Below are positions 8,191 through 55,770 of a DNA stretch of 64,000 bases, piece after piece (positions within the stretch are counted from its first letter, which is position 1; the number at the start of each line of letters is the position of its first letter). The DNA comes from Ianthella basta (taxonomy: Eukaryota; Porifera; Demospongiae; Verongiida; Ianthellidae). Where the stretch lies: assembly GCA_964019415.1 (NCBI GenBank), contig OZ025884.1:5563233-5627232 (forward strand), written 5' to 3'. Position numbers and translations under genes: made by a program. The notes beneath the pieces are model-generated. The model was given only the letters and a program-made list of their open reading frames with translations. It was not told the origin of the DNA and ran no database searches.

Positions 8191-8198
8191 AGCATGCC

Positions 8199-16595: not shown

Positions 16596-25717
<9,122 letters not shown>

Positions 25718-26109: not shown

Positions 26110-29100
26110 ATGGCCGCCGTGAGTTGGTTGTTCCGTGCTGCACTTTCCTACTCCATGAAGTGCAGAATGACGAGGAGTGTATTAGGGATACATCTGTCAA
26201 ATTCTAGCATAGGAAGGCGTTCTGTAGCTTGCCCCACATGTGCACTCTCCTGCGTCGGTATTCCTACCATTGGAGCGAGGAAGCATCCGTTGACCGTCCC
26301 ATCGGCAGATCTGGGTCGGCTGCTACACGACGATAAGAATGCGATCACGTGAGCTTATTCTGTGTGTGTGTGTGTGCGTGCGAGCATGGCTGTGCGACAT
26401 TCTAGTGCAGCAACTACTGAATCGCGAGTACTGCTCTGTTTCTGGCTGAGTGTTGCTCTGTGTTCAAATTTGAGGTAGTCCATGTACCTACCAGTCCTTT
26501 AAAGTCTTTTCAGAGTAGAGCTAAGTAGGTTACAGTGGAGGTCTACATGGTACCAGGATTGGGGGACTCTTTTTGACCAACCTCTCTAGTATTGTAATAG
26601 CCTTTCAATGTTTGTAGCAGTAAGCTTCACACTAATACTGTAGAGGCTCATGGATGAATGGGTAAGACTTATTCGAGCAAATCATGCTACGGAAAGCTGC
26701 AAGTTCAGGAGTCTCAACCGAAAGGGTCTTTGTTGGCTGAATGAGTCAGGTGCCGAAGACCATAGAGGTCGAAATGGCCTGAACTTGCACCCTTCTGTTC
26801 CGTGATTTACTCTAAGAAGTCTTCCCTGTTCAGCTCTTAGACACTCATCAATCAATCAATCTGTACGAACACATCCCCAAAACTGGGGATTGTTCTTACA
26901 GTAAGAATGCTAATATTGCTATGAGGGTCTCAAAGTATAGTTCATGATAAGTACTTTTATGGCATGGTTCTATAATCAGACTTTAGAAATCGTATTATTC
27001 TGGGTCTTCCTCTGGGTCTCCTTCCCTCCACCTGCGCTCTCATCACCTTTTCGACTATACTGCTCTGGTTCTCCAACACTCTGCCTTTCCATCCTTCTCT
27101 CCTCCTCTTCACCTGTGCCACCACTGCTTCCTGCTTCAATTATTTCCTTATCTCTTCATTTCTTACACAATCTAATCTGGTCACTCCTACCACTCCCCTC
27201 AAAACTTTTATTTCCATTGCCTGCACTCTTGATTTATCTCTCTCCTTCACAACCCATGCCTCACAACCATACACTAAGGTAGGTACCACAACCGCATTAT
27301 ACACTCTCAACTTGGCCTCTTTACTAAGCTCTTTGTTCCCAAGAACTGGTTCTCTCAATGCCCCTACTGTTGTAGCTGCCATGCCAATCCTCCGCTCCAG
27401 TTCGCTCTCCATCCTGCCATTCTCACTCAGCCTCATCCCTAGATACACCGGCTCTGCTGGCTGCCGTTGCCACTTGCTGCCTGTTGTTTAGCGCTACGTT
27501 GGGATTCATGTCCTGATTGACAACCTGCCAGGGAGATTGGCTTTCGGCTTTGCCTGGAGATGAGGAGAGTGGGGACTGATTACTTTAGAATAGGGGCATG
27601 GAATGTTTGATCTTTGAGGCACAAAGAATTGGAGTTGACAGAAGAAATGAAGAAATATCGGTTAGAGGTACTGGGTCTGAGCGAAACACAGCTTTTAGAC
27701 TAGTTTGCAAAATGCAGAGGCGGGGGAACATGACACGGTTTAGGGGGGGGAGGGGGGGACTATTAGTTAGTCAGGCCTATAACCACTGTTCTCTATCTAG
27801 ATTGTTGGGGGGATTCATCCCCTCAGCCCTATAGATTCTGCTGCCTATTAAATGTAGGCTGAAGCCAGAACCTGCAACAGTAAATTCCCCAGGTAAGGTT
27901 TGTGCAGTACATTTTGTCTTTCTTCTCTGTTGGCTCAGTGTGTTGGATGACCTACAGTACCACAAGCTAGCAGATGAGACCCTTGAAGAACTGGGGCAGT
28001 TCATTGAAGACCTCGGTGACACAGGGCTGTGCCCTTCTGACTATGATGTCTCACTGGCTGTGAGCTTATGCATATTTCGTGCAGGTATAGCAGTGCGCAT
28101 GCAGGGTATATGTATGTATGCATGTCTGTGCCTTCTCATTGTTGCTTGTGTGTTCTGTTGTGAGTTCGAGTCCTGATTGTACCCAGCCATTTTCTTTCGA
28201 CTGTGTGTGGCTGTCAACGCATTATCTCTGACCTCTCATGGTGTCCAATGGCTCAGAGCCCAAGTACTACATGAATACTACATTGAGGCATTCTTACTCG
28301 ATGGCCAACTGGGTTCTTTGCACCTGCTCCTGCTGTAAAGATCCCCGACTGTGATGTCTTTATTGGTACTGGGCCAGTCAAGTGGTGGTCAGCATGGCTA
28401 AGGCTGCAGTAAACCCATAGAGGGCTCAATAATGGTGTTTGCATAAGTAGCCTCGTGCCCATTTTCTTTTCCAGAGGACTAGAAACAGCAGAAGAGGTTC
28501 GGGAGTCAGATTACACAAGTGGAGCAAGTGAAACTTTGCCAACTACTAGCGATTCCTTGAGTAGTTGGAGTATACGTAGGTATAGCTAGGTGAAGCTACC
28601 ACAATGGGTAGTCTCCCTTCCAGACCCTATATCATGGAGAAATAGGGTCTGGTGACTTTCGCCACATACTCATGGCATGTTGGAATGCAATTATAGTGTG
28701 ACGTCATGACACCACTGTATGTGATTGCAGAATAGGGGAAATAGGGGCTGCCGTGCGAGACTACACAATGGCATGCGTGATTCTACTGAGTGAGCACTTT
28801 TTGCATTTTTACAAGTTAATATATGCTGAGACTCAAAACCTTTGTAGGATTTTAACCCCCAAAGCCCCATAGCACTTATGTAAGTCCTTGTATCCGCAGT
28901 GTTGCTTATTGTTGTGCAATCCCAGATTACAATTGTGCAATGCCCAATAGCATGGAGAATGGGATGTGTTCACGAGCTAATGTGTTATGCTGCCGATAGA
29001 TTCTGCAATAGTTTACAACGTACTACTATCAATAATTGTTATTATATGCAGTGGAAAGAGACAAGTGTGTATAAACTGTGAGTGTGAGCTGTGCTACACC

Positions 29101-30304
29101 AATGGCATGCATCCCATGAATGAGGTCGAGAGAGTTGTTGTGAAGCCATCACGTGCATATGACATAGAAGGACAATTTAGTGAGACATATTGACTTCAAG
29201 GGTCTTCCTTAGTCACAACACTTCAGTTTGTGAATGACGAAGACCCTTGAGATCTAAACATCTCACTAATTTGCCCTTCTTTGCTACGTGAGAGCTCAAT
29301 AGCAAACCCATTTCTGTTTAATGCTGTAGCATGTGCCTCTACCAGATCAGTGGCATAATAATCTTCCAGTGCATGTCCTCCTGATGTAGTATGAGAGTAT
29401 TGTGTGTCAGCAAGTGCACATGACAGTTGATTAAGCTATCCCCAAATGCCAGGGCACGCTGATGCTGTGGATGCTGTTCATTTGTCGATTGTCAGATTTG
29501 TTGACGCTAACGAACCATATTACAGCTTCTTTTAATAACAATTCACTATTAAAGATCGAAATAGCTTATTTTTGCTGATGTGTTGAGTTGCTGATGTGAT
29601 ATGCTTCATTGATGAATCATCTTCACTAGCCGAATATGTTGTGTGTGTGCTGCCTATCATATGTGTTGTTGATGGTGCCTCTCTCTTTGCTGAAAAGAAT
29701 GGTGTCCTCACGATTAATGTTGGAGGAGAACTTGGCACTTATGTCATCAACAAGCAGAGTCCTAACAAGCAGATATGGCTGTCATCTCCAAAGAGGTGAG
29801 GGGAACTGTAAGTTACAGATATATAGTTTACGTTGATGTGGTAGTCACTGAAGGCCAAGTGGCAGACAGATCCAACCACTGCCAAACAGTATGGATGGTC
29901 CCTGTACACAATACGTATAGCTACACTCTGGCACCCACACCATATTCTGTACCGAGTGTATTTATCAGTTTTATGTGTAGAAAGGAATTTCACTACTACT
30001 TTTGTACACAGCTATTGTTAGTCAAGGTCTTCCTGGTCTATGTATTTTTTGGCAGCAGCTGTTGCTGTTGGCCATATATGGTATTGTATTTACACTGTGC
30101 ATGTATGAGAGGATGTCTCGTTCTGTACTTTGCAGTGGTCCAAAGCGGTATGATGTGATCAAGGGACGATGGAGGTACTCTCATGATGGCAGTGCACTGC
30201 ACGACTTGCTCAGCAGCGAATTTTCAGAACTCCTAGATAGCACAGTTGACCTGTCTGACTTAACGTATTCTCACATTATCAATGATGGTGAATCATGGTC
30301 CTAG
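26110..30304 (+). CDS. FXN: Frataxin, complete four-exon gene
   Basis: Exons 26110-26348, 27939-28059, 29698-29795 and 30136-30304 join in frame to 208 residues (human 210). The N-terminus is rich in Arg/Ser without acids for the first 65 residues, a typical mitochondrial targeting sequence. The mature domain starts with an acidic helix ([18 protein letters not shown]), continues with [15 protein letters not shown], then [19 protein letters not shown] and LSSP, the most conserved frataxin block, and ends with [19 protein letters not shown]. Frataxin acts in the matrix as allosteric activator of the NFS1-ISD11-ISCU iron-sulfur cluster assembly complex. Intron 1 contains a LINE insertion absent from the duplicated copy at 42030-44275. 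Intron 2 holds a MITE at 28608-28764. The gene is the left part of the tandem unit that also carries receptor 1. Confidence 0.95.
26843..27688 (-). mobile_element. 5'-inverted LINE fragment in frataxin intron 1
   Basis: On the minus strand 27450-26957 encodes the end of a non-LTR reverse transcriptase region ([19 protein letters not shown], a typical block) and a basic RRPRGRPR tail, followed near 26845 by a short (GATT)n tail. On the plus strand 27570-27688 encodes the endonuclease start ([25 protein letters not shown]). The two parts are in opposite orientation, as twin priming produces. CAGCTCTTAGAC at 26831 and CAGCTTTTAGAC at 27689 flank the element as a 12-bp target-site duplication. 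The paralogous unit has a single CAGCTTTTAGAC at 42773, the empty site. Both coding parts are fragmentary. Confidence 0.85.
28608..28764. mobile_element. TAGTCTC-type MITE in frataxin intron 2
   Basis: Termini GTAGTCTC and GAGACTAC are inverted, and ACAATGG is found directly outside both ends. Just inside the left end is an 11-base internal hairpin CCAGACCCTAT/ATAGGGTCTGG. It is about 157 bp with no coding capacity and probably hAT-like. Confidence 0.7.
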
Positions 30305-30757
30305 CAATGGCGACAGCTCGGCTAGCTCCAATGAAAGATTCAGAATTTTTGTATGTGTTGTTTGCTGTGCCTCACCTGGTGTTTGTCCAACGCACTTTGC
30401 CCTCATGGTTAAATAGCATGCATGACAACAACTCCATACAGTATGTATGTGCATATGTAGGCTCATGATTATGGCCTGGGACGGGCTCTAGATCTGGCCA
30501 TCACGTTAGGGCAGAGGGGATTATTGATCCATGCATGCATGCCTGGAGACATCATAATGAGGACGAAGCCATTACATTATCCCACTTGCTTATTACGCCT
30601 GACTGCATCGCTAGCATTTGGTGTAAACAGCTCTACGAGCGCGTTCGTAAGCTGGATTAGTATGGCTTCGCTTGTTTGCAAGGTTGCGCGGTATATAAAG
30701 AACTAGCAGCTGCTGGTGGAGAGAATATACTTCGATCTGCAGCTAAACGTATCCGAG
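30305..30757 (+). promoter_or_regulatory. Receptor 1 promoter region with TATA box
   Basis: The interval between frataxin's stop and the receptor start. A TATATAAAG box lies at 30692-30700, 66 bases before the ATG. The same box at nearly the same distance (45186-45194, 68 bases) precedes receptor 2, so it is conserved between copies. The transcription start is expected about 30 bases downstream. Confidence 0.7.
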
Positions 30758-33700
30758 ATGTCCAAGTGCAGAAGAGCCGTGCTGTTTCTTATGTTAGTCT
30801 CTCTCTCCTCCCTCGTCGCCGCCTCGGAGTGCGGCAGTGACGAGAGGGTGGTCCTCCCGATCGGACTGTTCTCCAGCAGCGACGTGCTACGGACGTCCGA
30901 CGCTATCCCCGCTGCAGAACTAGCCATTCAGCAGATCAACGAAGACAGGAGATACCTTCCAGGGTACTGTCTTAAAGGAGTGGTCTATGACAGCAATGTA
31001 AGCAGCTATATGGCAATTCATGGCGCAATGGGTTTAGCCTATTATTGCTGTGCACAGCTAGTTGGATTCCGCTAAGCTATGTTACAGTATACTTGCATGG
31101 TTTAGTTCGTATTGCATGATAAATATCTAAAGAGCTTGATGCTTATGTTGATGGCCCATGTGCAAATTTCTTTCTAACACTGCAGTGCACAACTGACAAC
31201 GCAATTGATGACACCTTCAAGCACATTCTAAAAACCACTTCTGTTAAGCAGGAGTTGAATGGAACAGTGGCTCCTCCACTTATTATCATTGGAGGAGGCT
31301 GCCCAGAAAAGACAGAAACAATTGCTAAACTGTGCAAATTTCTGCATGCACTTGAGGCAAGTTAATTTCTCAACTGATTTGGCACTTAATTCTGTTTGCG
31401 CAATGTAGGCCAGTACATGCAGCATAGCATGCACTGACAAATGATAGCAAGCAGGTGCATTAATATAATGTACCTACCAATGTAAAGTGCATGGTAAGAT
31501 ATCATGCATGGTCAATAGTTTAGGCCATGCAATGTTGCATTAAAATTTTGCTCTTTTGCTATGCTGAGAATGTTCCGACTTGCACATAATATAATACATT
31601 ATAGCTACATGCATGTCCAGGTCTCCTATAGAACTGGGGAATTAATGTGGAGGAGTGTTCTGGGCCCTCTTCTTACCATACATGTGCATGCATTAATTCT
31701 TCTCTTCTCTGTTTTGCATGCAGTCCTTTGTCACAGTCTAGAATGCAAGTGCTAGACTGAGTGGTATCCTTCAATGTCTGTCCATGCAGATTGACTACAG
31801 TTTGTCAGAGTACACAGATAATGAGGATGCCTATCACATGATGCCATTGCTGACGTATACCAAATTTGCTCTTCACAACTTCATTGAATGGACTGGCGTG
31901 AAGCACTTCACTGAGTTCATAGAGGACTTGCCTGAATTCCATGGGTACCCACTGGGGAGACTGCCACATTTGGTATATACTTACATATTATCTTCCAGTA
32001 TTCCAAGTTCTGCATCTTGGCCAAATTACTGCTCAATAGGCCTACATACATGCCATCTCTAGCTGTTTAAATTTGTAAAATGATTGGCACAAATTCACTT
32101 GCATGAATATCAATTCTTGAATTGCCTCTGAACTCTGACCTCAATTATGCTGCACTATGTCATATTGAAGTTCAAACATGAGTTGTGATTTAATGATCAT
32201 GATGTTGACATTCTCTTTGCAAGCCAAGTCAAAATAGGCATTCCTGTTTAATTAATATTACCTCCATGTTTGGTCATAATGAGGAGGTATTTCCTCCCCC
32301 CCCCCCCCCCCCCCCCGTTGAGAATATACAACTGGAGACAATAATGAGAAGGTAGCTATCCCTTCCTCCCCACCTTCTGGTTGGGACAATACAGCTAAGT
32401 CAAGAGCAAGACTTTATTGCCTTTTGACAGTCTGTTGAGGCAACAATTACACTTGATATTGCAGCAATAATTCTAATAATTGTAGAGTAAAGTATTTTAT
32501 ATTCGTTGCCCATATTTTCAATTTCAGGACAGTGATGACACATGGAAGAGGCTTCTACTGTGTGATGTGAACAAGTGTCATGCAAGTGGAATTGAAAAAC
32601 ATTTGGTAAGCCACCTTTATAGGTTCGTGAGGCAGTGTTAGTGTTGGTGTACTGGTGGAGTGTACTACTACTGTGTGTGAGTGTACGTGTAGCATGTATC
32701 ATTAAGTATACAACTGTGCTGTGCCTAATTTGCATGTGCACAGCAAGGAAAAAGAGAATCAATTGCTTTGTCGTTCTATTCTATTTGCAGATGAATGCTT
32801 CCAAGACAGTGCTAGCACTTGAAGGGCATGCTGAGATTCTTCAGGACACTGCCTGCCAGGTACAACCAATGCGTGTGCTGTTCTATAATAAGGTTCTCAG
32901 GAGCTAAGGCATACATTCTGTAATTGATGTAAAGATGTATCTATGTATATAAGCTGCTTGGATTTGAACAGAGGCCAGGTTTCATTTAGAAGCTAGGTGT
33001 CACTGGAGCACTTTAATAGAGGTCAAGGTTCAAACCGAGGCTGCATGGCTTTGAATTGACGCCATGTATAAAATTCACACATTGGTAAAGGCAAATTGAT
33101 CTTGAACAAATGAATCTCCTGCACATGTGTCCTGGGGTAACTAGTTTAATGCAGTTCTACCTTGTTAGTAGTCCTGTGTCTGGCTGCCCTCAAGGGGTAG
33201 TGTTGTTGAGGTGCAGGTGTCCATTAGAAGCCATGGATGCACACGTGGGTAATCTTGGTTCATTACACCAATCATGGCTTCCAGTTTACATTGTACAATT
33301 AGTGCATTTGTCTGCTGGGCTTTGAGCAGAAGCCGAGAGCCATAATTGGACAATTGTGACTGAACTCTGAATAGAGAAAAGGCTTGAGTGACAGCTAGAG
33401 TGTTTGGGGGGTAGGAAGAGCTTTCCCTTGCCTCCAGCAGTAGATAGAACCTTGACAAGGTAGCTACGTATAAGTTACTAACCTCTCTGTACATCAAATG
33501 AAATTCCCATGCATATGTCAGTGTACATGTATTAATGACAATACCTCTCATTGTACAGGCTGTAAAACATGGTGCAGTGTACCCGCATAAGATGTGGTTC
33601 ATCTATGGGTTGGAGGGTGGAGAGTGGTGGGAGTGGGACGGTGTGAAAACCAACACCAACTGCAGTAAGGAGGACATGAAGCGCTTCCTGCACAAGGCCA

Positions 33701-36700
33701 TTACTGTGGTGCCCAACTTTGATGGAGAAATGCAAAGAAGACAGCCGAATGGGGAGGAGGTGTGTAGCTATGTAGATTCATCTGTGTGTGCATGCATGGT
33801 GTGTAAATGTGCACACAAGTGTGTGCAAAATGTATCTCTTGCCATGGCAACCACACACTTAATTTCCATATCACTAAAGAGCCCAGGGCTAGCGAGATGA
33901 AATGACAGCAGGTTGGGTGTGTTGGATGCGTTTCAAAAACTCACACGCTTCTTTGTGCACTTTCTTCCAGTCCTCAAAAATCTTATTGCTTTAGTGGAAG
34001 ATGAAGATAATCAACTGTTTCAAAGCCATCAAATCTTTCCAGCAAGCTGCTGCAAGCAGTCTTTCAGTCATTGCGCACTACACATTACAAGGAAGCTATC
34101 TCATTTGAAATGAGAATCTGCCTGAAATCTCCATACTCAAGCAGAAAAGACTGCAATGTGAAGGAACTGTCACCAATGTGATTCCCTAGACAGCTAATTA
34201 TATAATCCTGCCAAAAGAGTGCTTATGGAGCCATGGCAATGGGAGATATAACAGTCATAGTCCTTTCAGTGTGTGATATGCCACATACACAGCACTGGCC
34301 TTCAGGCCTTGTGCTGTGTATGCATCATTACATGTACTAAGAGGACTTTAACTTTACATAATTTAGAACTGCTCTGTGTAGTAGTATGCTGATCAGTCCT
34401 TGCATTTGTATATACATATATGTATATGGAATGAAAATATGTAATTATTATTTACCTAAATACTTTATGATAATCATATATTTTGCATGCTATTAGCTAG
34501 TGGTTGCTAAGGAGGACATGACTTCAAATACTGCATACCATACCCCAAATCCACAGCAGTGTCATGCATCTATTATTAATAAAACTTGCCTCCCTTTTGT
34601 GCATGCATCCAATCAATTTCCTTCAGTTTGCTGAAGCCTACAAGAATCTTCAGAACATCACCAGAAGACACATCCATGTTCATGAGCCACTGATCTATGA
34701 CTCTGTCTTGGTAGCAGCTCTGGCAATGCATGTATCCCTGCCAACGCTGGGGTTTGATGGATTTAATTACACAATGAAGCATGATAATATTGAAAGAGTA
34801 ATTCAGCGCGATTTGCAAAGATATCGCTTCCCTGGACTTACAGTGAGCTGTACATGCACTCCATGCATGGAGTATATGTATGCACATATAATATGTGTTC
34901 ACTTAAAGTTTCTGTCTGTTTTGAAGGGGAGAATTCAATTCTACCAGCAGATTCATCGTTTCAGGGCAGTTGACCGCTTTCTGGCTCTTCAATACAATCT
35001 CCTTCCAGGTAGTGGTCAGACATGGACTAATCCTTGCACACAATAATATAATCCCATTCTGATGCACATGTCCAATGTAGTCCTTTACTTCTACATACAG
35101 GTGGTGAGTTAAGACTAGTCCCTGTTGCCAACATCACCCTCAATTTTCCAAACTTCACTGCTGATATTGACTTTATGGGAGGTCAAACAATGGAGTCAGT
35201 GTTTCCTGGTTAGTCAGTCTTCACTCCCCTCCAGTATATATGTCTCTTGAATTAAGAAGATATTTAGCTTAATTCCCAATTGAGGCTTTGTGGAGTAGAC
35301 TTTGTAGGCTTGTGGGCAACTACTGTATAATATGTATGTACGTGGCTATGTATATGCAGCAATGCATATCAGATTCACTTCAGATCAAACAGATATGCCA
35401 TGCATGCCACCTTTGCAATTCCATTCATGTACATTATTGTATAGCCTAAATAGGGTTGAACCGTGGCATGCCCACTCATGACTCATTGCTACCTCTGCAG
35501 AGGGAGTGCCTGAGCCACCAAAGACCATCATCCTAGTTATCTCTTGGATAGCTAGTGGTGTCATCATGGCTCTTGCCATCCTGGGAGTGGTCTTTGCACT
35601 TGTGTGTATGATGCTGACCTGTGTCCTGTGGAACAGAAGGTAACAGCACAGAGTGTGTTGCTACATTCAACATTAAGATGTATGACAATGGGGTGTTGCA
35701 TATATAATACCTTAGCAGCAAGCAGTATTAGTGATTATGCCATAAGTTACTAGTATATACGTATGTGTACTGTCAATGATTCCATTTTGAGGTATACAAA
35801 TTTATCATAGACTATACTGCTTTATACCCTCTCACCCTCGTTGTCACTGTCCATCTTGTGTGCTTGTTAGTCTCCCACATTTAAACTAGGATGTTTATAG
35901 TGTGTGCATTCCCTTTATCATTCAAGCAAGTACATCTCCCCTCTCTCATCCCTCTTTACTGAACACGTTGCTTTTAGTAAACAGCACTGTCACCTCCCCT
36001 CCATTTCTCCCTCATCCATTACAGGGAGATGAAACTGACCAGCCCACGGCTAAACTTGGTCATTGCACTGGGTGCAATAGTGTGGTACGTATCTTCAGTA
36101 GTTAAGGCCATACCAACTGAGGACCTAACTACTGCTACTGTGCTCTGTGAGGTGAGGAGACTAAACATAACAGAAGGTTACAGTACAATGGGACTGTGCT
36201 ATTGAAGGAACTCTCATGTAAATGGATCCATGGACATCATGCATCTGTGACGTTGACAGCAGCTGTGCAAATTGTGGTTTGAATGGTGGTGGACATGCCT
36301 TTCAGCTGTTTCATTTGACCTGTACTAAGTCAGTGTTTACACTGCTGACAGTTAAACTGGGAATTCAGAGCAGCTGCATGGAAATGTCCCCAACTGTTTA
36401 GGTTTATTAAGCAGACTTTGGCAGATGGTCTACATTTGACTCAATTGACATGCACAGTGCATGTACACATCACCTCTAGGTGCACGGGTAGGCACACACT
36501 CCATGTACTAGTAGAATAATGAGACACATTATAACTATGCATAGTAAAATAATTATGCTGCTATTTTCCTTAATTGTTCCTGTTCTGTTTGTTTGGATCA
36601 CACAATGCAGGTTTGGCGGTGGGGCTGGAACATTGGTGCTACTTTGTTCTTTGTGCCTCTACTGCTGAAAAACTGGAGGGTGTATTATATCTTCCACAAC

Positions 36701-39700
36701 CCAACCAAACATAAGATTGTGAGCATATCACTCCACATTGCTAGAACCACACTCTGTTCCTCTTACACTGTACATCACCTCCTACTTTCTTTCCTGTCAT
36801 CTTCACAGGCAGTAACTGATTGGAAATTGATTTTGGTTCTGGTTGGGTTCATCCTCTTTGACATTGTTCTCCTGACTGTATTCACTGCTGTGCCTCAGAC
36901 GAGACTCAATGCTCAGTTCAACTATGTAAGTACAGGGCTGCAAAAGGCTTGAATAGCTTGGTGTAGCTAGGTGTGCAGCTGAGTGTTGATGATCTTTGGC
37001 ACACGCCTAATGAATGTTTATTGCTTCCAGACTTTCCCTTTAGTTAATACATTAGTTAATTCGACTGTTATTGTGCTAATGGTAAGTTTGTTTGTGATAG
37101 TTAATATAATGTAATGCATTGCTTATGTCGCCATATCCACCTGCACAAACACATAACCATGCACAATGCATACATTAGCACATATACATACATTTACAGC
37201 ACAACATGTGCACACGTCACCCTGGCCCATACTTGCTAGGCAATTTCTGGTTGCCATCAATAGGGCTCCGGCCCCCCAGCCTCCTGAGACACTTCAGTGT
37301 AGAAGGCTGGTAGGTGTAATATCCAGTGGTTAGCCCCTGTTCAACCTAGCCCAGCCTGTCTGTTGTAGTGGCCTACTGCAGTGAACCAACCTCGTAATGC
37401 ATATTGTTGCGTTCACAGGCACCGTAAGCGTACAAAGTGGACAGTTGCTCAAGTCAATGATTAGGCAAGGCAGGACTGGCAAATGCAGTACAAAGATCTT
37501 ATTTATAGGCTTCTGTGGAGAATGTTCTAGAGCATACAGATCAAGTCATGTCAGTCAAATCATGTCATAGGTGTCTAGAAAGTTTGGCATCATCTCTTGT
37601 CAATAGTGCTCACAACAATATGTACATGACATACATAGCTGTACATAATGGTGAAATGTTCTTTGTATATATCATGTAATTATACATAATTATGGTATAC
37701 ACGCATAATAATGATCTTACCTTTTGACATGTATATTTACCGTATACATATATACATATGCAAGTGTTCTTTGCTGCACTGTATGTATGTGTACATAGTG
37801 ACGTGGTAGAGGTTCATGCCATGCATGGCATTGAACAAAACTAATGGTTTTGTTGTTGAGCAATCATGTAGCAACAGGGTCAAATTAGTGGGATGTTGCA
37901 AACTTTCAGGTTTTTATCAGTCATAGATCCCGTTGCCATAGTAACGAGCCTCTAAATGATGGTTCTAAATCTCTGAGAAGCATTCCAATTGCTTAGCGCG
38001 TGATTCTAAATCCCATAATTGTACGTTGCGCGCAGAGCGCGGGGGTTTATAAATTCCATATAACCATCTGCGGGAACTCCGCGGGGGCAATGATCATCGT
38101 AGTATATGACGTCATTCATGCGTACGCCGTCAAGAAGAGAGAGGAAGGTGAAATGATTGGGCAAGCGAACGGATTTGGATCTATATTACTTAAATGGCGA
38201 CCAATTGGTGTCTCTACGAGATTTAGACCACTCAGCACTCGGGCGCTTCGTGCCCTCGAGCTTCGTGCTCTAAATCGAGGAGACACCTCTTGGTCGCCAT
38301 TTAACTATTACATAAAACTATTCTGTGACTGATGAAGATCCTCAAAGTTGAAACATCTCACGAATTTGCCATACTTTGTTACATGACTGCTCAACACCAA
38401 ACCTTTTTGTGCTCATAGTGCCTGCAAGCTGTACGCACTATATCTTGCTGCATTTTGATAACATTCTCACCTTCACCTTGCAGTCTGCCCCCTTTGAGAA
38501 GTACATTGACTGCATGACTGGTCACTCCTACATCTCCCTCATTATCCTGGCCTGCTACAAACTGGTGCTGGCCATCATTGGCAGTGTGCTTGCTGTGCAG
38601 AACAGGAAGATCAACATACCGGAGCTGAGGGAGGCCAAGCTGGTCGGACTGGCCACATACGCCTTCCTCTTTGCTATCGCAGTCACTGTGGCATCCATCT
38701 TTGCAGTGCAGGATACACGTGTGCGAGCAATTGTAGTCTCTGTGGAGGGACTGTGCATTGTGACATTTCTTCTTGCTATCCTGTTTGTGCCAAAGGTGAG
38801 CATGCAGCACACAAGCATCTCCACTCAACTGCTACGGCTCTAACATCGATCTGTTCTGCAGAATTAATGAATGGATAAATGAAAAATACTGGAATGTGGC
38901 ATTACGCTGATTCTTTTATTGGAGTATTTGTCTTTGCTCTTGTATTCTCCATTGCTGCTCTGCATGCAATTCCACACTCCTATAGTTTTATGGAGCCTTC
39001 AGGACAGCTGCAGGGAAGGAAGAAGGCAAGGAGGCCTCCACAACAATCACTGATCTGTCCATTAAGGATGGCTTGGATGGCCTACAGAAGTGTACTCTTG
39101 CTGCAATGCAGAGTGAGATTGATGCCCTGAAGGAAGAACTGAAAAAGCAAGGCAAGGTAGGCAATTTGCTGCTGGTGTTACTGTTTTAGCTTAATAACCT
39201 GCTGGCTAATGGGGGGGGGGGGCAAGACCATTTTGTTTGCTCCGACACCTATCCCATACACATAGTCAACTCTTCATACTCACTGTGCAATTATACATAT
39301 GAACATGTGTTCTCTGATATTGTACTGTATATAGGTGCACAAATAATGCTATATGTGCTGTATTGAGTGACTTTTGAGAGTGGATCAAAATATAGCCATT
39401 CCGTAATTTCCATAGAGAATGCTAAGGTGCCAAAATGAACACCACATGCAGGGTGCCAATTGCAAGAGCACTAGCAAGAAGCACAATTAACTCCAACACA
39501 TTTCTGCACGATGAAAAGCAGTGTGCTCTAAAGGTCATGAATAATTTGAAAATTCGTCTTCATGTCTGCTATAGTACTAGTGTGGCTAGTTTTGTAAGAT
39601 ATATCTTAGCTTGTTCTCCATCGTTTGCCTCTGACAGGCAACAATGAGTACTCTAAGACTGGCAGTTGGAGTGTACTCTGTGCTAGTCCCTTTTGCTTCT

Positions 39701-42019: not shown

Positions 42020-42095
42020 GCCGTTGCTGACTTGCCACTCAGTGGATCTGGGTCGGCTGGTATATGACGATAAGAATGCGGTCACATGAGCATAC

Positions 42096-42295
<200 letters not shown>

Positions 42296-43800: not shown

Positions 43801-43912
43801 TTAGCTAGTAATTTCAACAGAATCATGACTCTACCTAGCCACTCAGGCCTTTATCGAGAATGGGATGTATACATGAAGCTAATGTGTTGTGCTCAATTGC
43901 TGCCAATAGAAG

Positions 43913-44141
<229 letters not shown>

Positions 44142-44630
44142 CTCATTTGTGTTGTTTGCTGAATGGTGTGTTCATGGTGTCCTCATGATTAATGTTGGAG
44201 GAGAACTTGGCACTTATGTCATCAACAAGCAGAGTCCTAACAAGCAGATATGGCTGTCATCTCCAAAGAGGTGAGGGGAACTGTAAGTCACAGATATATA
44301 GTTTACGTTGATGTGGTAGTCACTGAAGGCCAAGGGGCAGACAGATCCAACCACTGCCAAACAGTATGGATGGTCCCTGTACACAATAGGTATAGCTACA
44401 CTCTTTCACCCACACCACATTCTGTACTGAGTGTATTTAGAATTTTTAGAATTTTCAAAATTGCATATGTTGTTTGCTATGCCCTAATGGTTAAATAGCG
44501 TGACAGCAACTCCATACAGTGTGTGTGTAGGATTTTTAGACAGTCAGTTGGAGCTGTTGTACGAGCTCTGGCTCAGACTGCTGGACTTTGGGATTGACCA
44601 TGAATTGTGATCTGGGACAGACCTTACGTA

Positions 44631-44987
44631 GGTCTGGCCATCCCATTTAGGCAGGGGGGATTATTGATGATTCATGGAAACATCATAATGAGGGTGAAGC
44701 CGTTCAGCTCTCGTATACTTGTTCACGACGACTGCGTAATTAGGGTTACTCCAATTAGCTATAGCTAATTACGCAGTCGTCGTGAACAAGTATACGAGAG
44801 CTGAACGGCTTCACCCTCAACGGCTTCGCCCTGAAGAAGACCAGAGCATCTGGTCGAAACGTCGACAAGGTTTTCAACCCTGTTGTGAAGCTGGTATTAG
44901 AGAACCAACCCTTTCTGGCTTCACCCTCATTATGATGTTTCCATGAATCATCAATAATCCCCCCTGCCCAAATGGGATGGCCAGACC
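44631..44987. repeat. Inverted duplication (fold-back) upstream of receptor 2
   Basis: The left arm 44631-44743 returns inverted in two pieces, 44765-44819 (55 bases perfectly complementary to 44689-44743) and 44917-44987 (complementary to 44631-44701). The left arm's outer part also exists at 30490-30580 in unit 1 in the same orientation, so the right arm is the newer, inverted copy. Confidence 0.9.
44820..44916 (+). mobile_element. Small insertion with hammerhead-like core and 13-bp flanking repeat
   Basis: A 97-base sequence splits the right arm of the fold-back. GGCTTCACCCTCA stands on both sides (44807-44819 and 44917-44929), as a target-site duplication. Inside are CTGAAGA (44831-44837), a perfect GACCAG/CTGGTC stem and GAAACGTC (44856-44863), the core order of a hammerhead ribozyme with palindromic ACGT. 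Confidence 0.6.
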
Positions 44988-45185
44988 TACTTCTTATTCT
45001 TATTTCATCATAGAGGCAGTGTGCATGTGTGCCTGTAATCTATTAAATCGTGTCTCAGGCAGTGCGCATGTGTGCCTTTGTAATAATAAAAACATTTCGA
45101 TTTAAAAAAGTAAACCCCACTACTGCTCATTTTAGCGGTGCACATGATTAGTATGGTTTCACTTTGTTTGTGCCAGTTTGTGCAA

Positions 45186-45194
45186 TATATAAAG
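45186..45194 (+). promoter_or_regulatory. TATA box of receptor 2
   Basis: TATATAAAG, 68 bases before the ATG at 45254, matching the box before receptor 1. The sequences around it differ, so the box looks conserved by selection. Confidence 0.7.
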
Positions 45195-45253
45195 CAGCCA
45201 GCTATAGCAGGCAGCAGGAGTGTACCGAACAAGTGCGGCTAACTAAACCTGAG

Positions 45254-48200
45254 ATGTCTAACTGTGGAGGAGTCGTGATCTTTATTCTGATCGTCTCTCT
45301 CTTCTCCATCGTCGCCGCCTCGGAGTGCGGCAGCGACGGGAGGGTGGTCCTCCCGATCGGACTGTTCTCCAGCAGCGACGTGCTACGGACGTCCAGCGCT
45401 ATCCCCGCGGCAGAGCTAGCCATTCAGCAAATCAACGAAGACAGAAGATACCTTCCAGGGTACTGTCTTAAAGGAGTGGTCTATGACAGCAATGTAAGCA
45501 GTAAGCTGCATGGCATACTGGTTCTAACCTATTGGTGCTCTACATGCATATATAGCCAGTTGGATCCGCTAAGCTAAGTTATGTTGCAGTTGAGTTCGTA
45601 CGTGATTGATATCGAATGAGCTTGATCCTTGCTTATGCTTATGGCTTAAGTGCAAATTTCCTTCTAACACTGCAGTGCACAACTGACAACGCAATTGATG
45701 ACACCTTCAAGCACATCCTAGAAACCACATCCTCTGAGCAGGAGTTGAATGGAACAGTGGCTCCTCCACTTATTATCATTGGAGGAGGCTGCCCAGAAAA
45801 GACAGAAGCAATTGCAAAACTGTGCACATTTTTGCATGCACTTGAGGCAAGTTAATTTCTCAACTGATTTGGCACTTCTGTTCCCGCAATGCAGGCCATG
45901 CAGTACAGCATATATAGCATGCACTGACAAATGATAGCAAGCAGGTGCATTGTACCTTCCAATTGCAAAGTGCATGGCAAGATATCATGCATGGTCAATA
46001 GTTTAGGCCATTCAATGTTGCATTAAAATTTTGCTCTTTTTCTATGTTGAGAATGTTAGCTACACGCATGTTCAGGTCCCCAATAGAAACAGGGGGATGT
46101 GGAGGAGTGTTCTGGGCTGCTATCTTCCCACGCATGTGTATGCATTCTTCTCTTTGTTTTGTATCCAGTCTTTTTGTCACAGTCTAGAATAGCTACATAG
46201 TAATGCAAGTGCCTGTATCCTTCAATGTCTGTCCATTTGTATGCAGTCCTTTGTCACAGTCTAGAATGCAAGTGCTAGACTGAGTGGTATCCTTCAATGT
46301 CTGTCCATGCAGATTGACTACAGTTTGTCAGAGTACACAGATAATGAGGATGCCTATCACATGATGCCATTGCTGTCATATACCAAATTTGCTCTTCACA
46401 ACTTCATTGAATGGACTGGCGTGAAGCACTTCACTGAGTTCATAGAGGACTTGCCTGAATTCCATGGGTACCCACTGTGGAGACTGCCACATTTGGTAAG
46501 TTCTTTAACTGCACAGTACTTACATACTATCTTCCAGTATTCCAAAATCTGCATCTTGACCAAGTTAATTCTTCATGGGCCTTCATTCATACCATCTACA
46601 GCTTTTAAATTTGTAAAATGATTGGCACAGCATGAATATATCAATTATTGAATCACAACCTGTGCACGATCACCTCTGAACATACTCTGGCCTCACTTGA
46701 TATTGATAACATAAGCAGTTGATCCTATAAGTGGAGCTGCTTGCTTACTGCACTGTGGCATGTCAAAGTTCAAAGATGAGTTGTGATCTGAGGACCATGG
46801 TATTGACATTCTCGTAATTTAAACAACCAAAATGAAAATAGTTCTTCTTACTTCCATATGTGGTCATATTGAGAAGGTAGCTATCCCTTCCTTTCCACCT
46901 TCTGGTTGGGACAATACAGCTAAGTCAAGAGCTGGACTTTATCGCCTTTTTGACAAGTTGAAGTCTGTTGAGCAACAATTACACTTGATATTGCAGCAAT
47001 AATTATTACTATTGTGAAGTAAAATACTTTATACTCATTGCCCATATTTTCAATTTCAGGACAGTGATGACACATGGAAGAGGCTTCTACTGTGTGATGT
47101 GAACAAGTGTCGTGCAAGTGGAATTGAAACACATTTGGTAAGCCAACTTCATAGGCCATGAGGCAGTGTTAGTGTTACTGTACTGGTGGATGTGTACATA
47201 ATATGTAGCATGTATCATTGCATATACAACTGTGCTGTGCTTAATTTGCATGTGCACAGCAAGGAAAAAGAGACAGTGGAATTGCTTTGCTGTTCTATTC
47301 TTTTTGCAGATGAATGCTTCCAAGACAGTGCTAGCACTTGAAGGGCATGCTGAGATTCTCCAGGACACGGCCTGCCAGGTACAACCAATGCATGTGCTGT
47401 TCTATAATGAGGTTCACGAGCTAAGGCATAATAATGCATTCTGTAATGTATGCATGTATAAGCTGCTTGAATTTGAACAGAAGCCAGGTCTCATTTAAAA
47501 GCTAGGTGTCACTGGAGCAATTAATTAGAGGTCAAGGCTCAACAGAGGCTGGCTTCACAGTGATGCTCACACATTCAGGTCATAGGTAAAAGTAAATTGG
47601 TCTTGAGCAGAGAATATGTAGCAGAGTCCGTCTATACACCACTCCTGCTATCTGGGGTGACTGGTTACTATAGCTTTACCTTGTTATTGATCCTGTGTCT
47701 GGCTGCCCTCAAGGGCAGTGTTATTGAGGCGTAGGTGTCCATTAGAAGCCATCCATGGATGCACAAATGGGTAATGTTTGTTACAACAATCAAGGCTCAG
47801 TGCACACTGTACAATTAATGCATTAGTCTGCTATGAAGCTGGGCTTGAACAGAAGCCAAGGGATCAGTGGAGCCATAATTGGACAATAGAGGCTGAGTTT
47901 TGAATAGAGAACAGGCTTGAATAACACGAACCTACACATTGGCTCTCTTCAGTGGTTGAAGTGTGAGCTAAAGGCTCAACTCGACTGCAGCATTACCCTG
48001 TGCAGCATTACCCTGTGCTGACCACTTGGACAATGGTGTCCACGAAAATTATACCACTTCTTCCTTCAGCTGAAGACTATAGTGTGCAGAGTAGAGCAAG
48101 GAAGCAGCTGTGAAGGAGACAGCTGACTACACAGATCAGCAACCTGAGGTATAGGGGTGGCAGGCATGCATGCGGAATAAGTGTATCAAAAGCCTAATTT

Positions 48201-51200
48201 CGGACACAGCATGAGTTAGACGACAGACTCACTATGGCAGAAGGCAACAGCTTTGATACTTCAAATTGCAAGGTGATCTGTAATCATGTCCCCCAATGAA
48301 CATTTTGGCATTTAGACCCTCTGACGTTAATTCTGATGCAATCTGACGGTAAAGATCACATTACCACCATGTTTATACGCAATTGGCAAACATTTTGGGA
48401 GGGAGCTTGAGTTTGTGCAGGGAAGCTTCCCACCACCTCTGACAGTAGACTGAACCCTGACTAAGCATCAGCCTTGCTGCACCTCAAACAAAATTCCCAT
48501 GCATATGTCAGTGTGTTAATGACAATACCTCTCATTGTACAGGCTGTAAAAAATGGTGCTGTGTATCCGCATAAGATGTGGTTCATCTATGGTTTGGAGG
48601 GTGGAGAGTGGTGGGAGTGGGACGGTGTGACAACCAACACCAACTGCAGTAAGGAGGACATGAAGCGCTTCCTGCACAAGGCCATTACTGTGGTTCCCAA
48701 CTTTGATGGAGAAATGCAAAGAAGACAGCCGAATGGGGAGGAGGTGTGTATGTATGTAGATTCATCTGTGTGTGCATGCATTGGAGATGATTTTTAACCC
48801 TTGGCGCATGCGCCGTAAGGTTACAGTAGTTGGGTGTGTGCGGAAATGTAGTAACAAATCGTATAATTACATGATTTTCAACTGCCCTGTAGTAGTGGCG
48901 ATCAGCCCTTGCACTGGCATAATTATACATGTCATATATAATTATTGTGGAATATATATTATGTAATGACTTCCTTACAATTGTTTATTATGCATGCTAA
49001 TAGCTATAGTAGTATGGAGGACATTAGTTTGAAGCACCGCATGCAGTTCCCAACAGCAGTGGTGTCCCTTGAGCAAGACTTGCCTTCCTTGTGTACTCAA
49101 TCACTTAACTTCCTTCAGTTTGCTGAAGCCTATAAGAATCTTCAGAACATCACCAGAAGACACATCCATGTTCATGAACCACTGATCTATGACTCTGTCT
49201 TGGTAGCAGCTCTGGCAATGCATGTATCCCTGCCAACACTGAGGTTATTTGGATTGAATTACACGGTGAATCATGAATTTATTGAAAGACTAATTCAGCA
49301 CAACTTGCAAAGATACTACTTCACTGGACTTACAGTGAGCTGTACATGCACTCCATGCATTCCATAGAGTGTATACACATGCAGTGCATAGACATGAATA
49401 AGAATGTGCTGTGCTATGTTAACAGTGGCATGTGACTCTGATATATGTTTTTTCTGTTTTGAAGGGGAGAATTGAATTCTATCAGCAGATTAACTTTTTC
49501 AGAGTAGTTGACCGCTTTCTGGCTCTTCAATACAATCTCCTTCCAGGTAGTGACAAAGCATGCAGTACCAGACCTTGCATCGAGAATACGTCTCATTCTG
49601 ATGTACATGTACAATGTATTGTACATGCCGTCATGTACATATATGCATGCACATATATACAGGTGGTGAGTTAAGACTAGTCCCTGTTGCCAACATCACC
49701 CTAAAGTTTCCAAACTTCACTGCTGATATTGACTTTATGGGAGGCAACACAATGGAGTCAGTGTTTCCTGGTTAGCCCCCACGCACTCCTCCCATGCCTC
49801 TTAAATGAAGTGAGGCTTTGTGCATGGAGTTATAAGTTAAACCTTAAAGTTTGTAGATTTTTGTGGGCAACTACTGCAGTATGTGGCTATGAATATTCAA
49901 GAGCAGCCACCATTGTTATCACATTCATGTATATACATTTTCATCCGCAGTAGCACCAAGCCATAGCATGCACACTCACTCATTGCTATATACCTCTGCA
50001 GAGGGAGTGCCTGAGCCACCAAAGACCATCATCCTAGTTGTCTCTTGGATAGCTAGTGGTGTCATCATGGCTCTTGCCACCCTGGGAGTGGTCTTTGCTC
50101 TTGTGTGTATGGTGCTGACCCGTGTCTTGTGGAACAGGAGGTAACAGCACTGTGTGTGTTGCTACAGTGTGATGTAGTGTGTGAAGATGGTGATCAAAGT
50201 GTTGCTTGCAGCATGTGCATATAGCATACATGAATACTTAGTCTAGCAATGCTCAACATGTTGCTTCCAGCAACAACTGTCAAAATCCCCTCTATTTCTC
50301 CCTCGCCCATTATAGGGAGATGAAACTGACCAGCCCACGGCTAAACTTGGTCATTGCGCTGGGTGCAATAGTGTGGTACATATCTTCAGTAGTGAAGGCC
50401 ATACCAACTGAGGACCTAACTACTGCCACTGTACTCTGTGAGGTAAACAGACTAAATGCAACAGTGAAATGGGATTACAATAATATTTAAGGGAGCTGCA
50501 ATGTAAATGAATGGACATCATCTGTGATGGTGATATTGCAAGGAATCTCTCATTGTAGCAGCACTGTGCATATTGTGGTTTAAATAGTTGTGGTCATGTA
50601 TTTAAGATTGCATGTGTTGGCAGTACATGGCGAAGCAGCTGGGAGTATCCCCATGTTGAGACAACTGCACGCTGTACTGTACATTATATGGTTTACCTGG
50701 CAGACTTATAGTAATGGTTACATTTGACTCATGCACATAGACATTGCCAGTAAGTACATGGGTAGGCATACACTCCATGTACTATACAAATGAATGGACA
50801 CATTATAACTATTGTACGATGAAATCTGCTGCTATATTCTGTTAATTGGTCCTCTTCTGGCATGTTTTGTTTGCACACTGCAGGTTTGGCGCTGGGGCTG
50901 GAACATTGGGGCCACTTTGTTCTTTGTGCCTCTACTGCTGAAGAACTGGAGGGTGTACTACATCTTTCACAACCCAACCAAACAAAATATTGTGAGCATC
51001 ACTCAACATTGATAGAACCATGTTTCTCTTACATCAACTCTCATTCTTCTTTCGTCTCATCTTCACAGGCCATAACTGACTGGAAATTGTTGTTGGTTTT
51101 GGTTGGGTTCATCCTCTTTGACGTTGTTCTCCTGACCATCTTCACTGCTGTGCCTCAGACAAGACTCAATGCTCAGTTCAACTATGTAAGCATATGTGAG

Positions 51201-54200
51201 GGCTGTTAAAGGGTTAATGAGTGTAGCTGCGGGGGTGAGTTCAAGGCCTTTGGTACGTGACTTGATGAATGTTTATTGTTTCCACACATAATTGTTGAAC
51301 CTTGCTTAATGTATGGATTGCTATTGTGTAAGTGTAAGCTTTCAATGTTTTGCATAGTGTATAATTGCTTTTACGTTTGTTGCAACTTCCACCAGCATAA
51401 ACACATACTCACAATGTATAATTTATACTGTACTAGCACACACATTTTAACAGCACAAACATGCCTACATATGTCACCATACATGGCATGTCCTGATTGG
51501 ACGATGCAATCATGTGATCGCAAAACATGGCCACCGTGGCCGAGCATGTATGCTTCAAAACAAGCAGTCTATGAGACACTCTGCGTCCCTTAGGTTGAAA
51601 GACCTAGGTGCGTTTCGCTCTTTTGCAGAAGTTTGCTGTTATTCGCTCATGAGAAGGAGCTGTTCTGGCTTCCCGCATGTGGGTATTTTGTCAGCCGGCA
51701 ACGCAAGGCGGAGTGAGCGTGGCTGAAGGCCATGCCTGCTCGTATATTATATGCAATGCCATACATTGATATCAAATATATAGTCAGTTTCACATCATGG
51801 TATGAACTCTTCTCGTGTATTATATATGCACAGTCATGCAATATCACACAGTCTACCTCTGGCTGCATGTTCTTTGTTGTCTGAGTATGTGGTGTATGCA
51901 TATTTGTGTACTTGCCACACATTGCTAAACCTCTCACCTTATAATTTGCAGTCTGCCCCGTTTGAGAAGTACATTGACTGCATGGCGGGCCACTCCTACA
52001 TCTCCCTCATTATCCTGGCCTGCTACAAACTGGTGCTGGCCATCATTGGCAGTGTGCTTGCTGTGCAGAACAGGAAGATCAACATACCGGAGCTGAGGGA
52101 GGCCAAGCTGGTCGGACTGGCCACATACGCCTTCCTCTTTGCTATCGCAGTCACTGTGGCATCCATCTTTGCAGTGCAGGATACACGTGTGCGAGCGATT
52201 GTAGTCTCTGTGGAGGGACTGTGCATTGTGACATTTCTTCTTGCTATCCTGTTTGTGCCAAAGGTGAGCATACACAAACATCTTCACTCGACTGTGATAG
52301 CTCCAATACTGATCTACTCTATGGAATTGAATGATTATAATATGAAAACAATTGGAATGTGCATCACATTGGCATTCGTCATTTGGTATTGCACTCTCCA
52401 TTTCTGCTCTGCATGCAATTCCACACTCGTATAGTTTTATGGAGCCTGCAGGACAGCTGCAGGGAAGGAAGAAGGCAAGGAGGCCTCCACAACAATCACT
52501 GATCTGTCCATTAAGAATGGCTTGGATGGCCTACAGAAGTGTACTCTTGCTGCAATGCAGAGTGAGATTGATGCTTTGAAGGAAGAACTGAAAAAGCAAG
52601 GCAAGGTAGGCAATTTGCTGCATGCATTATTGTGCTACCACAGGCCCGTAGCACTAAGATAAAAACCAGTCAGGCAATAGCTGACGTGATGCAAACTAGG
52701 AGGGTCTGGGGGCATGCCCTCCCAGGAAAATGTTTTGAAACCTAGATGTTCTGTGAGTACTTTTGGAGCAATTCTAGGCCCATCAACACTCCAATGAGTA
52801 TGATGAAATGTAACATAGACCAACAGACACTTATAGCAGGAAAGGCAATCAAGTGTCATGAAACAGGTAATACAATGCATTGAAAGAAGAAGATAGTGCA
52901 TTAAAAATTGAAATCTAGTGGTTTGTTGGCTGTCACTCCAACGCTAGACAGCACAAATCTCTCCTTCCCTCCACTAGAAGACACGATCAATGCAATTTTG
53001 CACGGCGATCGATTAACACACCATTTGATTGCGTTGGAAAACGTCAAAAACATCATGCGTACATCCATAAAATGGCTGCCGTAGTATCTGGCTATTCCTT
53101 GTTCAAACTAAGTCCTGCAATACTGCAACAAGACCAATCTGCTTTTAGAACACTGTTTAACCTTAGGCCAGTACCCCCCCCCCCCCCAATTTGAAAGTGC
53201 GTTTAAAATGCATATCTTCAATATTTAGAATTTTGTTCCAGCAGCAAAAACCGGTCCGGCCATGGCCGGACCGGCCGGACTGGGTGCTACGGCCCTGTAC
53301 CATACCAGCTGGCTAATGGCATTGGCAGTCTGTACATTTTGAATTGAAAGCTGCTGCCTTGAACACTTATACTACTAATGCTACTGTTGTGCATGTGGTA
53401 TTGGTGGTGTTCATATTGAAGCCAAAGTGGCTTAAACAGAATGTCTTCACAGACTGAGTGTGAACACCCTTGTTAATGAGTGCATGCATACGAAGTGATA
53501 TGAGCGAGCATAGGATGAGGGTTGTACAGTGTATGTCATTAATGGTTTCTGTGGACACCATTGCACCTGAAGACATCCCAAGCACACAAAGGCAATTCTT
53601 CATGCACACTGGTCATATACACAAACATGTTTTTCTCTGATACTGCATATAGATGCTCAATGCTATATGTGCTTCATGTATAGAGTTATTAATGTTAGTG
53701 GATTGAAAATAATTTGAGTACTTTATACTGCATAATCCCAAAGCATGCATTGTGGTTGTTCTTTAACTTCCATAAAGAATGCTAGGGTGCCATGAAGTAT
53801 AGTAGGGTGTCAATGCAAAAAGAACTTTAGCAAGAAACACCAACACCTTTCTGCATGGTGAAAAGCAGTGTGTATAAGTTAAGCAGTTATTGAAATGTAC
53901 ACAGTTCATCTTTGTATTTGCCATCATTTAGCTAGTTCTGTAAGCAGGAGCCCTGCCTGTTCTCCATCATTTGCCGTTGAAAGCTTGCAATGAGTGCTTT
54001 AATAATAGCAGATGAGGTGTACTCTTTGCTAGTCTTCTTCTGCTTCATCCGACGTTACTGAATAGTTTGTAATTCTTGTGTTTTAGGCCACAACAACCAG
54101 CAGTGGCTTGCTCTATCTTCTGTCGAAATCCTGTTTGTTTGCCCTGTGTTCACCTGATCACCTCCTGCTGTACCAGTGTCTGAAAGTTTGTAACATGACA

Positions 54201-54425
54201 TTTTCCCTACCTATTGATTCTATTTAGCCATCACAGTATATTACTTCTGATGTCACTGTGACCAACCAAAGTGTTGTCTTGTCTGATTATCAGATGAAAC
54301 CGACAGCAGGTAGCAGTGCATGTGGATACGGCAATTTTGAATACCTCCCAGAGGGCTACAGCACTGGTGGAGCAGTCACTTGGGGAGCTTGTGAACAGGA
54401 CCCCATGGCCAACTCTGCCTTTTAA
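45254..54425 (+). CDS. GABA-B-like class C G-protein-coupled receptor, copy 2
   Basis: Sixteen exons with the same phases as copy 1 give 839 residues: 45254-45493, 45676-45846, 46313-46495, 47060-47137, 47310-47378, 48543-48743, 49119-49334, 49465-49546, 49663-49770, 50002-50140, 50316-50442, 50884-50991, 51069-51185, 51952-52263, 52435-52605, 54228-54425. It has a signal peptide, Venus-flytrap domain, seven spans (SPRLNLVIALG, FVPK) and a coiled-coil before a short tail. Every exon frame is open and all splice sites are present, so it appears functional. Exons 1-6 are close to copy 1, but exon 7 (LRLFGLNYTV, ERLIQHNLQRYY) and intron 7 are nearly those of copy 3. Intron 2 uses a GC donor. Intron 15 contains a hAT-like insertion. 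Ligand and coupling are unknown. Confidence 0.9.
52641..53297. mobile_element. hAT-like non-autonomous element in receptor 2 intron 15
   Basis: The ends CAGGCCCGTAGCAC and GTGCTACGGCCCTG are inverted. TACCA lies directly outside both. The flanks ATTGTGCTACCA and CCAGCTGGCTAATGG join in receptor 1 (39178-39210) without the element. The interior includes GGTCTGGGGGCATGCCCTCC, a word frequent in non-autonomous hAT relatives. No transposase was seen. Confidence 0.75.
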
Positions 54426-55770
54426 GCACACAGAGGAAAGCATGAACTTGGAAGGGAAGGAGGGAGGGAGAGTGTGATATTTTAACTGCTCATACACACA
54501 TTAATTGATAACGTCACTCCTCACACACCAGTTTTAGGCCCCATAAAATAGTGTCTCAAGTGTGCATACAATACACAATGAACTATAGTGAGAGCTAGTA
54601 GACATAAGCTGAGTGTGTTTAAGCAATGCTCTCCTGCTCTAGGAATCAGTTTGCTGCAGTGTGGCTTCCTTTACTGCTTACTGTATCTGCTTCATGCTTT
54701 TAAGCGCTGGCAACTGTGATTAATTACTTGCAGTTTAGTCAATGTAAGATTGTCATAGATTGCATCATTTCAGACACTCTGTGTGGTGTTAATTAATTCA
54801 TCACCATGCAATGATACAACATTTGGTAGATCGGTGTGCTGATAATCATGAAGCATGTAAAGTGAGCAGATGCTAGGCAGCTCTTCTGGACAATAGGGTA
54901 TACATTTCACATGGACTAAGCAGCTAATGCATGATGGAAAAGTGTAGCTACATGCATGCAGTTGCTGCATTGTACACATTTTTGTAGAACCTGGTGTAGA
55001 TAGTAGATCAGCATTCTTATACATAAACCTCAAACTGGAGCATTGTCTCTCACTGTCATGCAAACCTGATGCAGATTTACCTGGCTACACTATTCAAGGC
55101 AAGCACTGTGTTGCGTGCGGTACTTCAATATTCAATGATGAGGTGCCTGCCAACATATAGTGGGTCTATGGCTACCTGTTGTGCATGCAAATAGCTAGCT
55201 AGTCTTGCTATTTGATGACAACATCTGGGTACGTTTTTTGAGGTATTTACCAACCCAGAGAAAGAGGCTAGTAGATATAAATGGACAGTATTCGCCTGTT
55301 AGGAGAAAGGGTGGGGCAGCTCGCTAGCTAACTACAACTGGACATGAAAGGATCCAAGCACTAGCTAGCTATGTCACAACACTAGCTATTGCTGTGCATG
55401 TGTTTGAACATGGCTAGCTGGCTATGTGCGCGAGGCATTTATAGAAAGGGGTTTGTGGATATGCGGGTGGTGAGCTAGTTAGCTAGTAGGGAATTCAGCA
55501 AGATTATCTAGCTAGCTAGCTAGCTATGACTAACTCCCCGAGGAAACTTTCCAGGTACCACGTTCTCGCCTCAGAGTATGGCAGCAGTGAGCTATGTGTG
55601 TTTATGCCCCGGTAACTAAGCTGGGACGGTCTAGTCATAGACACTGTGACTCTACCCAACGCAAGTACGGTTGAAAAAGTAGTCGGCCATGTTGTAGGCG
55701 TATGCGGACACTCACGTGAGAGTGGCCCATACTTAATATAACTAAACCAACATTGGACAAACACTGGAAG
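54426..55770. other. Intergenic between receptors 2 and 3
   Basis: To about 55560 it aligns with the 3' flank of receptor 1. After that comes the promoter side of receptor 3. An E-box palindrome TCACGTGA lies near 55710. No TATATAAAG is present, unlike the other two copies. No gene was seen. Confidence 0.6.

Follow-up and report, generated by a model that had tools for sequence, protein, structure and literature searches.

Duplicated (unprocessed) pseudogenes are an ordinary category of gene remnant. Among the systems closest to the one described here, metabotropic GABA receptors are expanded and tandemly clustered in the freshwater sponge Ephydatia muelleri (PMC7385117), and tandem duplications in a population sample of Drosophila yakuba are reported to shuffle exons and give rise to expressed chimeric or new gene structures (PMC5460883). 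In the demosponge Ianthella basta we find an array of five GABA-B-like class C GPCR genes, the first two of which lie in tandem units that each begin with frataxin sequence: a working gene in one unit, and in the other what looks, from its sequence, like a decayed and apparently dead remnant. Literature searches on frataxin duplication or pseudogenes, sponge frataxin and GPCR gene conversion, judged by title or abstract opening, returned no report of this locus.

The window, by which we mean the whole stretch of 64,000 nucleotides that we analyzed, is part of a 7.08-Mb contig in a genome of 209 Mb and 96 contigs. Self-alignment revealed, far above chance, a direct tandem repeat in which unit 1 (about 26291-41975) consists of frataxin and receptor R1, and unit 2 (about 42028-55559) of a frataxin remnant and receptor R2 (Table 1). 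Position 42028, where unit 2 starts, corresponds to 26291 within frataxin exon 1, and its end at about 55559 corresponds to 41975. The repeat is collinear and extends through a common 3' flank, bearing out the tandem duplication proposed in the first-pass annotation of this DNA. Elsewhere in the window, two tandem long open reading frames of 530 and 487 aa lie on the minus strand at 5582-9800; their DNA is 86% identical over about 1.4 kb, a partial third copy sits between them, and neither has a Pfam match.

Table 1. Features of the frataxin-receptor locus, in window coordinates.
Feature	Position	Strand	Description
Frataxin, functional	26110-30304; exons 26110-26348, 27939-28059, 29698-29795, 30136-30304	+	Spliced model
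Receptor R1	30758-40833	+	16 exons, 837 aa, GABA-B-like class C GPCR
Unit 1 3' flank	41502-41980	+	Resembles unit 2 3' flank, 55120 to about 55565
Junction piece	41986-42024	+	Matches 25258-25294, about 1 kb upstream of where exon 1 similarity starts
Exon 1 remnant	42028-42085	+	3' part only; 12/57 bases changed
Exon 2'	42881-43001	+	Open, both splice sites intact, 6/121 bases changed
(GT)n tract, long	43910-44141	+	Just 5' of exon 3'
Exon 3'	44173-44270	+	Open, donor intact, acceptor AG lost
Palindromic repeat	44600-45010	.	Adjoins missing exon 4; a dispersed repeat forms its core (about 44824-44917)
Receptor R2	45254-54425	+	16 exons, 839 aa, no internal stop
Unit 2 3' flank	54426-55565	+	Duplicated unit ends at about 55559
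Receptor R3	55771-65488 (window ends at 64000)	+	846 aa, no internal stop
Receptor R4	67874-76428 (beyond window)		
Receptor R5	79768-90339 (beyond window)		

The unit 1 frataxin model comprises four exons joined by canonical splice sites and encodes 208 aa. Its product matches PF01491 over nearly the full domain (positions 2-105 of 107; E=1.1e-34) with 119.2 bits, above the curated cut-off of 21.3. The best five of the 120 matches listed, to Halichondria panicea, a JGI protein, Halisarca dujardinii and two E. muelleri models, show 62-69% identity across 55-72% of the query. Two frataxin models of E. muelleri, Em0009g399a and Em0009g401a, bear near-neighbor numbers and show a single difference over 129 common residues; that species may have a tandem duplication too, or the annotation may have been split. 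Within intron 1 of the I. basta gene, a stretch at about 26850-27690 has no counterpart in unit 2, and a minus-strand open reading frame at 27140-27487 resembles, by eye, part of a reverse transcriptase of the non-LTR type.

The unit 2 copy was described in the first-pass annotation as having no start codon, a lost donor at exon 1, a deleted exon 4 and exons 2 and 3 that are still open, and all of these features are present in the sequence. No start codon remains, and the exon 1 donor has changed from GT to AT (42086-42087). The lost acceptor of exon 3 is a further lesion, absent from that description. Exon 4 was not found either in 44271-45253 (alignment score 12.5, shuffled mean 12.1) or in 44271-55600 (15.0, shuffled 16.3), against 169 for the positive control; downstream of 44275, where an exon 4 would have contradicted the described loss, scores thus stay at shuffled background. 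The part of unit 1 that holds exon 4 (29974-30394) is represented in unit 2 by 28 bases (44449-44476). Insertion of the nearby palindromic repeat may be linked to the loss of exon 4; the repeat's core recurs elsewhere in the genome, for the most part at 95-100% identity (67 matches listed, with 40 of 497 candidates scored).

A PF01491 search of the whole 209-Mb genome gave three matches, all at this locus, in exons 3, 3' and 4. The remnant is therefore the sole second frataxin match found by that search. Exon 1 and exon 2 went undetected in the functional gene itself, and a fragment consisting of just these two could escape the search elsewhere. Unit 2 lacks the complete coding domain, with start codon and full set of splice sites, that would make it a second PF01491 gene, and we caution that domain matches alone would miscount frataxin as two-copy. 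What it does have are the marks of a duplicated pseudogene: retained introns, a parent nearby, disabling lesions and no protein-level constraint, the last judged on eight changes only. Self-comparisons revealed no frataxin pieces upstream of R3, R4 or R5.

The sequence at the junction of the two units bears on where the copied segment began. A short piece separates the common 3' flank, which ends at about 41980, from the remnant of exon 1. It directly precedes the remnant, in the original order and strand, and its alignment to 37 bp of source, 39 columns long, contains mismatches and one gap of 2 bases. Its score of 24 compares with a maximum of 16 in 1,000 shuffles and with 9 for an alternative match to the R2 flank; in a comparison with 25 other same-sized stretches, it scored 23.5 against a best of 14.5. 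A tile scan on both strands (1,266 scores), excluding tiles with the piece or with 25258-25294, peaked at 16 and 15. The 16-base core of the piece occurs exactly twice in 209 Mb, at these two places, and a reversed control pattern once. The source falls in an apparent intron of the divergent gene that neighbors frataxin on its upstream side, tentatively MAU2-like, with a weak match to PF10345 (cohesin loading factor family) below cut-off. A search of 41000-42300 for the first part of exon 1 yielded nothing above shuffled background. Because sequence from 25258-25294 directly precedes the exon 1 remnant, the copied segment probably extended upstream by 1 kb or more, with the start of the frataxin copy lost later, and the breakpoint probably did not lie inside frataxin exon 1, where the first-pass annotation had placed it.

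In its gene model, the receptor of unit 2 is intact in 16 exons, as had been claimed for it. The simple receptor pair envisaged with that claim holds for the R1/R2 tandem and falls short of the array, which, read from 80 kb beyond the window end, comprises five receptors (R3-R5 in addition) over about 60 kb. All five models have 16 exons at matching positions, encode 818-846 aa and contain no internal stop. Their donors are GT, except for GC at exon 2 of R1 and R2, and their acceptors AG throughout; the R3 start and the end of R4 exon 10 were set by hand, and for exon 8 the in-phase frame was chosen and the other dropped. R1, R2 and R5 each have a TATA-like box 66-71 bases upstream of the start codon; for R3 and R4, the 120 bases upstream showed none. 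Ratios of dN/dS are 0.32-0.42 in all ten receptor pairs. Between exons 11 and 12 of R5 (85492-88363), a 1.28-kb inverted repeat with arms 99.4% identical looks like a recent fold-back insertion, and downstream of the receptors, at about 120364-144000 in window numbering, lies another tandem array of about eight similar segments.

The 7tm_3 domain (PF00003) places the five receptors among class C GPCRs: it is matched at E=1.8e-36 in R1 and E=4.2e-37 in R2, and above cut-off in exon 14 of R3, R4 and R5. R1 (E=2.1e-13) and R2 also match PF01094. Receptors of GABA-B type join a Venus flytrap domain to the seven-transmembrane domain without the cysteine-rich domain of glutamate receptors, and at an E of 0.01 R1 and R2 match no family other than PF01094 and PF00003. 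Among 20 PDB sequences matched by R2, GABA-B subunits occupy the first 15 places. Domain content in R1 and R2 and similarity in R2 suggest a GABA-B-like identity, presumably that of R3-R5 as well, with GABA binding and GB1-GB2 pairing as putative properties. Among the 7996 candidates sharing most words with R2 (residues 330-800), one relative emerged, Em0013g425a, at 26% identity. The genome holds 89 PF00003 matches at E ≤0.001, many of them clustered on other contigs (C9 and C5, and also C3, C11 and C13). For twenty matches on C9 and C5, the 7tm_3 domain lies complete or nearly complete within a single frame, with a stop in one case, and because of this the genes look intronless there.

The receptor copies are mosaics whose nearest relative switches along the gene. 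Introns E7-E8 and E8-E9 differ by a K of only 0.01-0.02 between R1 and R4, against 0.34 and 0.32 between R1 and R2 (0.20 and 0.17 under stricter blocks, at 46 and 35 sites). Similarly, R1 and R5 match at 92% over 36294-36931, with a K of 0.03 in intron 11, and R3 and R4 have K values of 0.04 and 0.09 in introns 14 and 15. A permutation test on identical runs gave p below 0.005 in six of ten receptor pairs; uneven constraint can inflate this test, and the intron tracts are the stronger evidence. From such near-identical tracts, which run across introns of non-sister copies, we infer that gene conversion produced the mosaicism.

The first-pass annotation held the duplication to be fairly young on the grounds that exons 2 and 3 of the copy read open. 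Openness does not date the event: in simulations, 76% of copies stayed open with 7 substitutions, the number seen, and 35% with 30, and the two exons are likely open by chance. Noncoding divergence is large. It amounts to 155/1065 = 0.146 over whole introns in the frataxin part (0.116, 0.216 and 0.077 in introns 1-3) and to 780/3395 = 0.230 over introns and 3' flank in the receptor part (segments 0.106-0.356), a significant difference between the two parts (Fisher p=1.8e-9), although such figures depend on method (the R1/R2 3' flank has K 0.335 and p 0.228). Neither part shows the low divergence of a recent duplication. If sponges are assumed to accumulate 2-5e-9 substitutions per site and year, the duplication would be tens of millions of years old, and a young age is not supported.

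Exons 2' and 3' differ from their counterparts at 7 of 216 bases, which is below the 15.7 expected from whole frataxin introns (P=0.0097) and close to the 7.8 expected from the closest flanks for a copy drifting on one branch. BLAST-picked frataxin flanks differ at 56 of 774; both counts exclude the exon 1 remnant and the DNA before R1 and R2 (36/103), and with the exon 1 remnant included the exons differ at 19 of 273. Since the low divergence runs on into intron 3 (10/178), re-copying of this tract off the working gene is a likelier cause than selection. Purifying selection on exons 2'-3' was considered on account of their low divergence relative to the wider introns but found no support: their changes are six nonsynonymous and two synonymous, a neutral ratio (6.1 to 1.9 expected without selection), in a count that takes in the first codon of exon 3, beside the ruined acceptor. 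At one site the copy has Asn where all five relatives (four named sponges and the JGI protein) have Asp; at another it keeps the Phe of all five where the working gene has Ile. Of the two nearly identical E. muelleri models, this comparison includes Em0009g399a and omits Em0009g401a.

Taken together, these data suggest a history that, as a whole, we consider quite probable. The GABA-B-like class C GPCR array would have grown by unequal duplication, and one event would have copied a segment reaching from inside the MAU2-like neighbor (at or before 25258) through frataxin and R1 to about 1.1 kb past R1 (about 41980, equivalent to 55565), placing it in tandem. R2 would have retained all its exons and promoter-proximal DNA, while the frataxin copy, being redundant, would have been free to decay. 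A deletion of about 1 kb (about 25295-26287) would have removed DNA upstream of frataxin, probably with the shared promoter in it, together with three quarters of exon 1, counted from its 5' end; a separate loss of about 0.4 kb would have taken exon 4. The donor of exon 1 was lost as well, as was the acceptor of exon 3, and the remnant is presumably untranscribed. Afterwards the five receptors would have swapped tracts through gene conversion or unequal crossing-over. Against this history we count the lower noncoding divergence of the frataxin part; the parts of the unit may differ in age, or the frataxin part may have been partly re-copied.

That the 1-kb deletion explains the junction is likely in its own right. 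We give distinctly less credence to a breakpoint that truly lay in frataxin exon 1, with the 37-bp piece copied in by template switching during repair and the frataxin copy never whole. Duplication junctions are known to carry short templated inserts, frataxin similarity does start at 26291 = 42028, and a templated insertion would look much like this piece, which is short and carries mismatches and a gap. However, for a piece that abuts the remnant in the same strand and order, a plain deletion needs no extra steps, and unit 2 is also without exon 4 (about 0.4 kb) and about 0.85 kb of intron 1, although the intron difference could instead reflect an insertion in unit 1. The difference in divergence between frataxin and receptor parts, along with 96% identity between the units over 29699-29973, would also fit R1 and R2 as old duplicates, with the frataxin segment and the receptor 5' part copied before R2 at a later time by conversion or break-induced copying. 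This is improbable, as frataxin intron 2 is on par with the receptor introns in divergence and a single event explains why the common right flank stops exactly at the start of the junction.

The proposed history also treats the remnant as dead. Exon 2' retains both acceptor and donor, and the changes in exons 2'-3' number under half of the neutral expectation from whole introns, as might be the case if exon 2' and the DNA upstream of R2 were used in a noncoding or chimeric transcript. Yet the exon 3 acceptor is gone, the exon 1 remnant is unconserved, the closest-flank yardstick leaves nothing unusual to explain, the ratio of changes is neutral, and the extension of low divergence into intron 3 suggests conversion rather than selection; a living remnant is accordingly a very slight prospect. 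Splicing of exon 2' into an R2 transcript or a regulatory RNA is just as improbable; if it did occur, the expression of one array receptor would be tied to a piece of an iron-sulfur gene. The least credible reading is that unit 2 is an assembly artefact or false haplotype duplication, which we think extremely unlikely given a noncoding divergence of 15-23% between the units, more than would be expected of a false haplotype duplication, together with many length differences and three further diverged receptor copies.

The history of deletion and decay makes this locus a worked example of how a sponge receptor family may grow: a unit is copied along with its neighbors, the receptor survives while the bystander gene decays, and sequence continues to pass between the copies. 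As a marker of a single event in the array, the frataxin stub could be of use in working out the order of duplications across relatives. In principle the stub is the same as any ordinary duplicated pseudogene, with introns kept, a tandem position, losses of start and splice sites and neutral changes, and what sets it apart is a junction piece that lets the likely original breakpoint be shifted by 1 kb. As in the E. muelleri clusters (PMC7385117), GABA-type class C GPCR genes occur here in a cluster; the clusters there are large, whereas the I. basta array is small, with five 16-exon genes and a trapped piece of an unrelated neighbor gene. A duplicated gene accompanied by a bystander fragment is an event of a known, ordinary kind, and in D. 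yakuba, too, part of a gene may be caught at one end of a tandem duplication (PMC5460883); unlike the expressed structures described there, the captured part in I. basta is a broken, presumably untranscribed remnant.
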